A stretch of DNA of 64,000 nt from Brachyspira pilosicoli. GTDB taxonomy: Bacteria; Spirochaetota; Brachyspiria; Brachyspirales; Brachyspiraceae. Positions 46,847 to 52,430 of this stretch are shown here, piece after piece (the first letter of the stretch is position 1; every line of letters starts with the position of its first letter). A model generated the notes under the pieces. That model ran no database searches. It was not told the DNA's origin and saw nothing but the letters and a program-made list of their open reading frames with translations. The position numbers and the translations under genes were made by a program. Location: the NCBI RefSeq assembly GCF_036997485.1, contig NZ_JAWLPU010000001.1:1054001-1118000 (forward strand), read 5' to 3'.

Positions 46847-46939
46847 ATTGCATTTTTATTTTATAAATATAACTATTTTAAAATCTATTCACAAAGATTA
46901 ATTATTATATATTGTATAAATTATGATTTTAGTGTGTAA

Positions 46940-47500
46940 AATTGCAGTCTTTTTGGTTCTTTGTGCCAATACCGAAGGCACTTCCTACGGTCGCAAAAGA
47001 ACTGGGGGTGCTGCACGGTGTGTGCTTCGCAAGGGGCTAGTCCCCGCAAATATTAAAATAAAAAATATATTTTTTAGGAACTTAAAAAAATTTAGTATAT
47101 CTTTATAAGAAACAACTATATTTTGTTATATAAGTTTATTTTATTCAACTTTTTCCCGCCTTCGTACCAATACCTAAAGATACTTCTTTCAGTCGCAGGC
47201 ACTTCTTTCGGTCGCGGTGCGGACTTCGTAAAAGTTTTCGACCTTCGGGCACGCTTTGCGAAAGTGCAAATACTTTAATTTTATATGTTTGGAATATAAA
47301 TAAAATAAAATATAAGATAATACCTGTATTTTAGTTTAAGAAATGCAGTCCTTTTGCTTCTTTGGGTCACCAAAAGAAGTGGGGTGCGGGGCAAAGCCCT
47401 GCAAATAATTAAAATAAAAAAGTTAAAAATTATTAGTGCATATTAAAACTATTATTTTTTATCAACTTTTTCCCGCCGCAAAAAGTTGCAAAAAGTGCAA
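46940..47500. repeat. Mosaic of GC-rich dispersed repeat modules, array 1
   Basis: This gene-free stretch holds several copies of modules also found at 63236-63475: TGCAGTC then TTCTTTG (46942 and 47344); GGCACTTC-CGGTCGC units (about 46975-46995 and 47190-47220); AGAAGTGGGGTGC or GGTGCTGCACGGTGTGTGCTTCG; a block GCAAATA-TTAAAATAAAAAA (47046 and 47400); ACTTAAAAAAATTTAGTATA (47082); TATATTTTGTTATATAAG; and TTCAACTTTTTCCCGC (47145 and 47462). Modules occur in varying order and state of decay. Small open frames inside (for example 46923-47108) are not supported as genes. Confidence 0.75.
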
Positions 47501-47564
47501 GTATTGTTATTCTATATGTTAATAATATATATAAAATATTAGATAGAAGTGTGTCCTTATTAAA

Positions 47565-49256: not shown

Positions 49257-49284
49257 TTGACATATAATAAAAAAGTATTATACT
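49257..49284 (+). promoter_or_regulatory. Probable promoter of the first deaminase gene
   Basis: TTGACA (49257-49262), 16-base spacer, TATACT (49279-49284). Transcription would start near 49291, shortly before the riboswitch aptamer. Confidence 0.65.
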
Positions 49285-49306
49285 ATGTAAAATCAAAATA
49301 TTTTAT

Positions 49307-49371
49307 ACTTATATAAGTTCATAATACGGTTGAACGCTCTACCAATTACCAAAAAATAATTGACTATAAGT
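49307..49371 (+). promoter_or_regulatory. Purine riboswitch aptamer, variant core, upstream of the first deaminase gene
   Basis: All parts of the purine aptamer can be placed. P1 is ACTTATA (49307-49313) with TATAAGT (49365-49371). P2 is GTTCA with TGAAC (49317-49321, 49331-49335) and an L2 loop containing AATACGG. J2/3 is GCTCTACC (49336-49343). P3 is AATTA with TAATT (49344-49348, 49357-49361), L3 begins CC, and J3/1 is GAC. C at 49364 is the specificity base and points to guanine-type rather than adenine ligands. J2/3 is one base shorter than the usual GTTTCTACC and has a C in place of a U, so ligand choice may be altered. No terminator hairpin follows before the ribosome-binding site. Confidence 0.88.
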
Positions 49372-49409
49372 TTTTATATCATCATAAAAATAAATGGAGG
49401 AATAAAAAT

Positions 49410-50771
49410 ATGTCAAGTATTTTTATCAAAAATATTTCTTCTATAGTTACTTGCGATAACAATGATACGGTTCATAACTACACTAATCTACTAATAGAAA
49501 ATGAAGTTATAACCTATATTGGCAAAGAAGAAAAAAAAGCTGATAAAGTTATTGATGCTTCAGGCTGCTTTATGTATCCCGGACTTATCAATACACATCA
49601 TCATTTGTATCAAATATTCAGTAGAAATCTGCCTCAAGTACAAAACATGGAATTATTTGACTGGCTTAGAACTTTATACGAAATTTGGAAAAATATAAAT
49701 AATGATGTTGTTTATTATAGTTCTATTGCTGCAATGGGTGAATTATTAAAAACAGGCTGTACTACTTGTTTTGATCATCATTATGTGTTTCCAAGTAATA
49801 ACTCTGAAACATTATTAGATTCTCAGTTTGCTGCTGCTAAAGATTTAGGAATAAGAATGTATGCTTCAAGAGGAAGTATGGATTTAAGCAAAAAAGACGG
49901 CGGACTTCCTCCTGATTCTGTTGTTCAGTCATTAGATGAAATTTTAAAAGATTGCCAAAAAGCAGTGGAAAAATACCATGATTCTTCACGCTATTCTATG
50001 AATATGGTGGCATTGGCTCCTTGCTCACCTTTTAGCGTTACAGAAGAATTATTAAAGCAATCTGCAATATTAGCAAGAGATTTAAAAGTAAGACTTCATA
50101 CACATTTATGTGAAACTAAAGATGAAGAAAGATATGTTAAAGAAAAATTTAATATGCGTCCTTTGGAATATATGGAATCTTTAGGCTGGGTTGGTAATGA
50201 TGTTTGGTATGCTCATGGTATTCACTTCAATGAAAAAGAATTAAAATTTTTAGCTGATACTCAAACAGGAGTAGCACATTGTCCTATATCAAACATGAAG
50301 TTAAGTTCTGGAGTTTGCAAAATACCTGAAATGCTTGAATTAGGAGTACCTGTTGGACTTGCTGTTGATGGAAGTGCAAGTAATGACGGATCTAGTTTGC
50401 TTGAAGAGATGAGAGTTTGTTATTTACTTCATAGACTTAATTCAAGCGATAAAGCTCCTTCAGCTTATGATATATTAAAAATTGCTACTAATGGAAGTGC
50501 AAGAGTTTTAGGCCGTGACGATATAGGAAGTTTGGAAGTGGGTAAGGCAGCTGATTTATTTATGATAGATATGAGAAGATTAGAGATGGTTGGTGCTAAC
50601 TTTGACCCTAAATCGTTATTCGGTACTATAGGCTGGAAAGGAAATGTTGATTATACTATAGTTAATGGAAAAGTGGTTGTTGAAAAAGGAAGACTAATTA
50701 CTATAGATGAAGAAAAGATGTACAGACTTGCAGATGATATTGAAAATAAATATTTAGATAAATCTAAATAA
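49410..50771 (+). CDS. 8-oxoguanine deaminase-like amidohydrolase, copy 1
   Basis: A 453-residue member of the ATZ/TRZ-SsnA group of zinc amidohydrolases. Zinc ligands lie in LINTHHHLYQIF (His63/His65), RLHTHLCET (about 229-231), the HGIHF block and VDGSASNDGSSLLEE (Asp). The stretch MDLSKKDGGLPPDSVVQSLDEIL and VALAPCSPFSVTEELL are characteristic of 8-oxoguanine deaminases, which convert 8-oxoguanine to urate. Guanine, isocytosine or related bases remain possible. A guanine-type riboswitch precedes it. GGAGG lies nine bases before the ATG. The gene at 51072 is a close duplicate, near identical over the last third. Confidence 0.85.
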   Translation: MSSIFIKNISSIVTCDNNDTVHNYTNLLIENEVITYIGKEEKKADKVIDASGCFMYPGLINTHHHLYQIFSRNLPQVQNMELFDWLRTLYEIWKNINNDVVYYSSIAAMGELLKTGCTTCFDHHYVFPSNNSETLLDSQFAAAKDLGIRMYASRGSMDLSKKDGGLPPDSVVQSLDEILKDCQKAVEKYHDSSRYSMNMVALAPCSPFSVTEELLKQSAILARDLKVRLHTHLCETKDEERYVKEKFNMRPLEYMESLGWVGNDVWYAHGIHFNEKELKFLADTQTGVAHCPISNMKLSSGVCKIPEMLELGVPVGLAVDGSASNDGSSLLEEMRVCYLLHRLNSSDKAPSAYDILKIATNGSARVLGRDDIGSLEVGKAADLFMIDMRRLEMVGANFDPKSLFGTIGWKGNVDYTIVNGKVVVEKGRLITIDEEKMYRLADDIENKYLDKSK

Positions 50772-50924: not shown

Positions 50925-50952
50925 TTGACATAAAACAGAAATCTTTTATAAT
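50925..50952 (+). promoter_or_regulatory. Probable promoter of the second deaminase gene
   Basis: TTGACA (50925-50930), 16-base spacer, TATAAT (50947-50952); both hexamers perfect. Transcription would start near 50960, just before the second aptamer. Confidence 0.7.
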
Positions 50953-50973
50953 ATCATTTAGGCAGTTTTACAT

Positions 50974-51036
50974 ACTTATATAAGTTCATAATAGGCTGAA
51001 CGTTTCTACCAATTACCTCAATAATTGACTATAAGT
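50974..51036 (+). promoter_or_regulatory. Purine riboswitch aptamer upstream of the second deaminase gene
   Basis: P1 is ACTTATA (50974-50980) with TATAAGT (51030-51036). P2 is GTTCA (50984-50988) with TGAAC (50997-51001). J2/3 has the canonical GTTTCTACC (51002-51010). P3 is AATTA with TAATT (51011-51015, 51022-51026), and J3/1 is GAC with C at 51029, so guanine-type. L2 is AATAGG, one base shorter than in the first copy. Downstream TCAATT (51051-51056), directly before GGAGG, can pair with AATTGA (51023-51028) inside the aptamer. This suggests a ligand-dependent switch near the ribosome-binding site (inference). Confidence 0.9.
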
Positions 51037-51071
51037 TGCCTTATCTTAAATCAATTGGAGGTATAAAATAT

Positions 51072-52430
51072 ATGTCAAGTGTTTTTATCAAAAATGCTTC
51101 TTCAATAGTTACTTGTGATGATAATGATGCAGTTCATAGTAATAGTAATATTTTGATAGAAAATGGTGTTATTACTTATATTGGTAAAGAAGAAAAAAAA
51201 GCTGATAAAATAATTGATGCTTCAGGCTGTTTTGTATATCCGGGGCTTATTAATACACATCATCATTTATTTCAAATATTTACAAGAAACCTTCCTCAAG
51301 TACAGAATATGGAATTATTTGAATGGCTTACAAATCTCTATGAAATTTGGAAAAACTTAAATCATGATGTTGTTTATTATAGCTCTATTACAGCAATGGG
51401 AGAGTTATTAAAAACAGGCTGTACTACTTGCTTTGACCATCATTATTTATTTCCGCAAAAAAACTCAGAAATGCTTTTAGATTCTCAATTTAGAGCAGCT
51501 AAAGATTTAGGAATAAGAATGTATGCTTCAAGAGGAAGTATGGATTTAAGCAAAAAAGACGGCGGACTTCCTCCTGATTCAGTTGTTCAGTCATTAGATG
51601 AAATTTTAAAAGATTGCGAGAGAGTAGTAAAAAAATATCATGACCCATCAAGATATTCTATGAGTATGGTAGCATTAGCTCCTTGTGCTCCTTTTAATGT
51701 AACTGGAGAGTTAATGAAGCAATCTGCAGTATTAGCAAGAGATTTGAAAGTTAGACTTCATACACATTTATGTGAAACTAAAGATGAAGAAGTATTTGTA
51801 AGAGAAAAATTTAATATGCGTCCTTTAGAATATATGGAAACATTGGGTTGGGTTGGTGAAGATGTATGGTATGCACATGGTATTCACTTTAATGATAAAG
51901 AGTTAAAATATTTGGCTGATACAAAAACAGGAGTAGCTCATTGTCCTATATCAAACATGAAGTTAAGTTCTGGAGTTTGCAAAATACCTGAAATGCTTGA
52001 ATTAGGAGTACCTGTTGGACTTGCTGTCGATGGAAGTGCAAGTAATGACGGTTCTAGTTTGCTTGAAGAGATGAGAGTTTGTTATTTACTTCATAGACTT
52101 AATTCAAGCGATAAAGCTCCTTCAGCTTATGATATATTAAAAATTGCTACTAATGGAGGAGCTAAAGTTTTAGGACGTGATGATATAGGAAGTTTGGAAG
52201 TGGGTAAGGCAGCTGATTTGTTTATGATAGATATGAGAAGATTAGAGATGGTTGGTGCTAACTTTGACCCTAAATCTTTATTTGGTACTATAGGCTGGAA
52301 AGGCTCTGTTGATTATACTATAGTTAATGGAAAAGTTGTTGTTGAGAAAGGAAAACTAATAAGCGTAGATGAAGAGAAAATGTACAAACTTGCAGATGAA
52401 ACAGAAAATAAATATTTGTCTATAATATAA
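51072..52430 (+). CDS. 8-oxoguanine deaminase-like amidohydrolase, copy 2
   Basis: A 452-residue paralog of the upstream gene product, with the same zinc ligands (LINTHHHLFQIF, RLHTHLCET, VDGSASNDG) and the 8-oxoguanine-deaminase blocks GGLPPDSVVQSLDEIL and VALAPCAPFNVTGELM. Differences cluster in the first two thirds (for example the loop after FDHHY and the helix near residue 90-150). The last third is almost unchanged even at the DNA level, suggesting recent duplication or gene conversion. I start at ATG 51072, ten bases after GGAGG; an in-frame upstream start at 51036 overlaps the riboswitch. It has its own promoter, riboswitch and terminator. Confidence 0.85.
   Translation: MSSVFIKNASSIVTCDDNDAVHSNSNILIENGVITYIGKEEKKADKIIDASGCFVYPGLINTHHHLFQIFTRNLPQVQNMELFEWLTNLYEIWKNLNHDVVYYSSITAMGELLKTGCTTCFDHHYLFPQKNSEMLLDSQFRAAKDLGIRMYASRGSMDLSKKDGGLPPDSVVQSLDEILKDCERVVKKYHDPSRYSMSMVALAPCAPFNVTGELMKQSAVLARDLKVRLHTHLCETKDEEVFVREKFNMRPLEYMETLGWVGEDVWYAHGIHFNDKELKYLADTKTGVAHCPISNMKLSSGVCKIPEMLELGVPVGLAVDGSASNDGSSLLEEMRVCYLLHRLNSSDKAPSAYDILKIATNGGAKVLGRDDIGSLEVGKAADLFMIDMRRLEMVGANFDPKSLFGTIGWKGSVDYTIVNGKVVVEKGKLISVDEEKMYKLADETENKYLSII

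Follow-up and report, generated by a model that had tools for sequence, protein, structure and literature searches.

In work by Hamal Dhakal et al. (2023, PNAS 120), riboswitches for 8-oxoguanine are said to be rare, to occur in Paenibacillaceae, always with 8-oxoguanine deaminase, and to act as ON switches. A guanine-I-like variant is described as binding 8-oxoguanine in two articles (PMC9295807; PMC11625349). Xanthine-II, guanine-II and 2'-deoxyguanosine aptamers are likewise variants of the three-stem scaffold with changes in the joining regions; xanthine-II and guanine-II have insertions in J2/3, and xanthine-II also has U51G (PMC9295807). Guanine-I aptamers themselves (RF00167) have C74 in J3/1 and an 8-nt J2/3 with U47 (GUUUCUAC or GUCUCUAC).

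The window, which is the whole 64-kb stretch of Brachyspira DNA that was analysed, has only two Rfam matches (cmscan), both to RF00167. One spans aptamer A (49289-49386, forward strand, 43.9 bits against a cut-off of 37) and the other aptamer B (50956-51051, forward strand, 52.1 bits), and the distance between the two aptamers is 1,667 bases. The features of the locus, with promoters predicted from sequence, are:

49257..49284, forward strand: predicted sigma-70-type promoter of gene A (TTGACA at 49257-49262, 16-nt spacer, TATACT at 49279-49284)
49307..49371, forward strand: aptamer A, a complete P1-P2-P3 purine aptamer with an altered J2/3, proposed 8-oxoguanine aptamer
49410..50771, forward strand: gene A, intact, encoding an 8-oxoguanine deaminase of 453 aa (NF006055, 582 bits against a cut-off of 532)
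50925..50952, forward strand: predicted promoter of gene B (TTGACA at 50925-50930, TATAAT at 50947-50952)
50974..51036, forward strand: aptamer B, a guanine-type purine aptamer with J2/3 GUUUCUAC
51072..52430, forward strand: gene B, encoding a paralogous 8-oxoguanine deaminase, protein 88% identical (NF006055, 582.7 bits)

Gene A starts 38 nt past P1 of aptamer A. The gene downstream of this aptamer had been called 8-oxoguanine deaminase-like in the preliminary description, and both it and gene B are intact and pass the NCBIfam 8-oxoguanine deaminase equivalog. The nearest solved structures to the two proteins are 3hpa (an amidohydrolase) and 7ww2 (listed as 8-oxoguanine deaminase). A TTGACA/TATAAT arrangement similar to the promoter of gene A is found upstream of the aptamer in other Brachyspira orthologues.

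The elements of aptamer A can be read directly:

49307-49313 with 49365-49371, forward strand: P1, ACUUAUA pairing with UAUAAGU
within aptamer A, forward strand: J1/2, UAA
within aptamer A, forward strand: P2, GUUCA/UGAAC
49328-49329, forward strand: GG of L2
49336..49342, forward strand: J2/3, GCUCUAC (7 nt), which is GUUUCUAC in every other Brachyspira aptamer found
within aptamer A, forward strand: P3, CAAUUA/UAAUUG
49349-49350, forward strand: CC with which L3 begins
49363..49364, forward strand: J3/1, A49363 and C49364, the latter a guanine-type C equivalent to position 74

Every element of the fold is present, with helices P1, P2 and P3 of 7, 5 and 6 pairs and with the GG and CC of the loops intact. 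The preliminary description had reported such a full three-way purine aptamer, with a guanine-type C in J3/1 and a J2/3 one base shorter than that of a sister aptamer nearby and altered by a U-to-C change, and all of this holds. The scaffold is common to aptamer A and to guanine-I aptamers such as aptamer B, and the equivalents of U51, U22 and C74 are retained, whereas J2/3 is of 7 nt with a C against 8 nt with U47 in guanine-I. Unlike the J2/3 insertions of xanthine-II and guanine-II, the change in aptamer A is a deletion, with U51 and J3/1 kept. What aptamer A does share with the 8-oxoguanine class is J2/3 GCUCUAC and a position directly upstream of an 8-oxoguanine deaminase gene.

Among 26 Brachyspira genomes, one per species, the aptamer is present in 16, always as a single copy apart from the two of the window genome. 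The altered J2/3 is confined to aptamer A; all other Brachyspira aptamers have the 8-nt form. The aptamer of the closest orthologue (G014) is letter for letter identical to aptamer A outside J2/3, where aptamer A has one U deleted and an adjacent U changed to C, and it scores 10.5 bits above aptamer A with the Rfam purine model. A change unique to one strain had been named as grounds against the idea of another ligand; this applies in part, as the change does occur in one genome only, in a comparison of just one genome per species. Elsewhere in the genus, an IS3-like element has broken the single deaminase gene of G012 (L011, L030) just past the first codons and parts the riboswitch from the gene. 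The deaminase leader of G021 (L031) has no purine aptamer and the deaminase gene of G017 (L035) is a pseudogene.

Close 8-oxoguanine deaminases number 21 in 247 Paenibacillaceae genomes. A purine aptamer was found upstream at 3 of 15 deaminase loci scanned with Rfam and all three have J2/3 GCUCUAC. A covariance model (R1) built from these three and aptamer A was run over 396 Paenibacillaceae genomes and gave 16 matches at 82-94 bits, after which scores fall to 63 bits. J2/3 is exactly GCUCUAC in 16/16 of these top matches, and in every one an 8-oxoguanine deaminase is encoded directly downstream, about 70-190 nt past the aptamer. At the 14 loci ranked next, the aptamer has an 8-nt junction (GUCUCUAC) and is followed by other genes, some for a roughly 30% identical amidohydrolase, or by none recognised. 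Among the high-scoring matches, GCUCUAC occurs in none of these 14 and is tied to the deaminase; aptamers with this junction but unusual stems may yet lie before other genes in the family. Guanine-type aptamers (GUCUCUAC) lie ahead of a roughly 30% identical amidohydrolase at L186-L193 and L196. With a looser pattern over Paenibacillaceae, chance matches dominate among the matches listed.

The 16 Paenibacillaceae RNAs can almost certainly be equated with the 8-oxoguanine riboswitches already published, judging from family, gene association and ON architecture; the class consensus used was compiled here from genomes. They resemble aptamer A in J3/1 C, J1/2 UAA and the GG/CC loops as well as in J2/3 and gene position, and they too are predicted to be ON switches. 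Aptamer A differs in belonging to another phylum, in its AU-rich stems inherited within Brachyspira and in a predicted translational platform, where theirs is a terminator. Its occurrence in Brachyspira departs from the Paenibacillaceae range reported for the class, which is a matter of range and not of mechanism. Since R1 contains aptamer A, a model built from Paenibacillaceae sequences only (R2) served as an independent test. Aptamer A scored 40.9 bits with R2, 6.5 bits above G014 (34.4 bits), and aptamer B scored 30.9 bits, a comparison informative only within Brachyspira because canonical Paenibacillaceae aptamers score higher through stem sequences shared with the training set.

Aptamer A is best read, with a probability of about 0.72, as an 8-oxoguanine-selective ON riboswitch derived from a guanine-type aptamer by deletion of a U and an adjacent U-to-C change. 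The altered J2/3 had earlier been taken as a sign that another purine may be preferred, with the downstream enzyme suggesting 8-oxoguanine or guanine, and the identical J2/3 before a deaminase gene in the Paenibacillaceae lends support to 8-oxoguanine. The 2'-deoxyguanosine variants then cited for comparison need not be invoked; the class that matters is the 8-oxoguanine variant. Canonical-pocket aptamers precede the same gene elsewhere in Brachyspira and in one genome of Oscillospiraceae, so 8-oxoguanine is not singled out by gene association alone. In solved structures, O2 of U47 contacts purine N9-H and the 2'-OH of U22 contacts N7 (PMC3764141); thus, the change at 47-48 would face the imidazole side, where 8-oxoguanine and guanine differ. 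As speculation, the C of J2/3 in aptamer A might contact O8 or N7-H.

Alternatively, aptamer A may still sense guanine, or both guanine and 8-oxoguanine, the J2/3 change merely tuning affinity. The retained C74, U51 and U22 equivalents are consistent with this, as is the fact that position 48 lies outside the universally conserved J2/3 positions (PMC3764141). Guanine-II aptamers bind guanine despite a one-base J2/3 insertion (PMC9295807) and metagenomic 8-oxoguanine deaminases act on guanine as well as 8-oxoguanine (PMC6186785). However, GCUCUAC is absent from the 14 other high-scoring Paenibacillaceae purine aptamers and is tied to 8-oxoguanine deaminase only, which leaves retention of guanine unlikely.

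Duplication of the deaminase could also have freed the second riboswitch from selection, so that aptamer A is decaying and its binding junction has been damaged. There is indeed a redundant tandem paralogue with an intact aptamer, and decay of several kinds is seen in the genus, the gene being broken in G017, lacking the aptamer in G021 and split by an insertion element in G012. Against this, the remainder of aptamer A is unchanged relative to G014 despite a gene dS of about 0.5. Gene A is evidently maintained since dN is low compared with dS against G014 (0.041 and 0.563; 0.038 and 0.517 for the first 900 bases), the dN/dS of about 0.07 indicating purifying selection. Decay, which does not predict the exact J2/3 that marks 8-oxoguanine deaminase aptamers elsewhere, is therefore improbable.

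Related variants bind xanthine or 2'-deoxyguanosine, but a response of aptamer A to either of these, to urate or to 8-oxoguanosine is very unlikely, as the U51 change and the J2/3 and J3/1 insertions of the xanthine variant are all absent (PMC9295807) and gene association favours 8-oxoguanine. A sequencing or assembly error, conceivable for a change seen in one genome at a U run prone to indel errors, is hardly credible since it must combine a deletion with a U-to-C change and arrive precisely at a variant already known in a different phylum.

The same J2/3 can be reached from either guanine-type background. In Paenibacillaceae, deletion of U47 from GUCUCUAC is sufficient to give GCUCUAC. In Brachyspira, deletion alone converts GUUUCUAC to GUUCUAC and the U-to-C change is also needed, the single-step intermediates being GUUCUAC and GCUUCUAC. 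Of the variants of the G014 aptamer with one deletion plus one substitution, 3/12,870 yield aptamer A, or 3/168 (1.8%) when confined to J2/3. Paenibacillus was considered as a donor of the variant by horizontal transfer and rejected because aptamer A is the Brachyspira G014 aptamer except in J2/3. On balance it seems likely that the 8-oxoguanine aptamer had at least two independent origins, one among Firmicutes and one in a spirochete, from two guanine-type starts, so that one cell would read guanine and oxidised guanine separately.

If aptamer A does bind 8-oxoguanine, riboswitches for this compound reach another phylum beyond Paenibacillaceae, and one deletion and one U-to-C change form a natural two-step path that alters which purine is recognised while the rest of the scaffold stays the same. 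The event would have been caught beside both the G014 orthologue, which is unchanged, and aptamer B, a guanine-type paralogue controlling the same enzyme. Together, G014 and A come close to a ready-made experiment on riboswitch ligand change, and aptamer A offers a hint of the response of a host-associated anaerobe to oxidative guanine damage.

When a strict pattern (TATAW...GCTCTACY...ACTA) was searched for in the genomes of 149 Spirochaetota, 291 Clostridia and 300 Bacilli, all matches other than aptamer A were due to chance and lacked the three helices. No exact copy of aptamer A was found in viral contigs. Among 37 other related-deaminase loci checked for riboswitches, only L080, from an Oscillospiraceae MAG, has an aptamer directly upstream. 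This canonical purine aptamer (L080:2836-2960) precedes a gene for a 71% identical 8-oxoguanine deaminase and resembles aptamer A in scaffold, although its J2/3 is GUUUCUAC; its leader also contains a strong terminator, which pairs with the P1 strand as in an ON switch. The Brachyspira unit may have come from a source to which the L080 unit is related.

How aptamer A might control gene A is indicated by folding of the leader:

49364..49400, forward strand: predicted expression platform of aptamer A (RNAfold)

Pairing is possible between the P1 3' strand with the adjoining GUUUUUAU (49370-49377) and AUAAAAAU (49384-49391), and between CUAU (49364-49367) and AUGG (49394-49397), the latter at the GGAGG ribosome-binding site (49396-49400). 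The predicted probability that this site is unpaired is 0.25 in the free leader and 0.54 with the aptamer forced (RNAfold), a modest change. In the free leaders of B, G022, G015, G011 and others, L3 UACCUC pairs with the ribosome-binding site GGAGGUA; in the same hairpin the P3 3' strand pairs with UAAUU and P1 AUAAG with CUUAU. Leaders of this type would be translational ON switches, as the aptamer fold excludes the hairpin that sequesters the ribosome-binding site. The L3 and site sequences of A and G014 are different; here the hairpin that competes with the aptamer involves the 3' strand of P1 and an AU stem further downstream. That aptamer A turns translation ON is suggested with moderate confidence, because several orthologues (G022, G015 and G008) have no rise in accessibility with the aptamer in the folding model and no two-sided covariation was seen in the alternative hairpin. 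Binding of 8-oxoguanine would hold P1 and P3 within aptamer A, which would free the ribosome-binding site of the downstream deaminase, and the enzyme then made would convert 8-oxoguanine to urate. The leaders of the Paenibacillaceae variant and of L080 have terminators built from P1/P3 strands, as expected for ON switches.

The two units of the window are old paralogues, since gene A is nearer to G014 (88.8% identity, against 88.2% to gene B) and gene B is nearer to the G011 and G012 orthologues (92% nt identity). Guanine-induced expression of gene B is plausible, given its guanine-type aptamer pocket and the conversion of both guanine and 8-oxoguanine by metagenomic enzymes of the same family. 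Within the 3' third of gene A, one part is 99% identical to gene B over about 200 bases and 93% beyond (50300-50700 compared with 51970-52370 of the window), while the 5' part of the gene resembles G014. The B-like part of gene A was converted by gene B in a recent gene conversion between the tandem paralogues. Upstream of the locus, an intergenic region (46920-47560) contains repeated degenerate blocks, for example ggtcgcaaaag and cttcgtaaaag.
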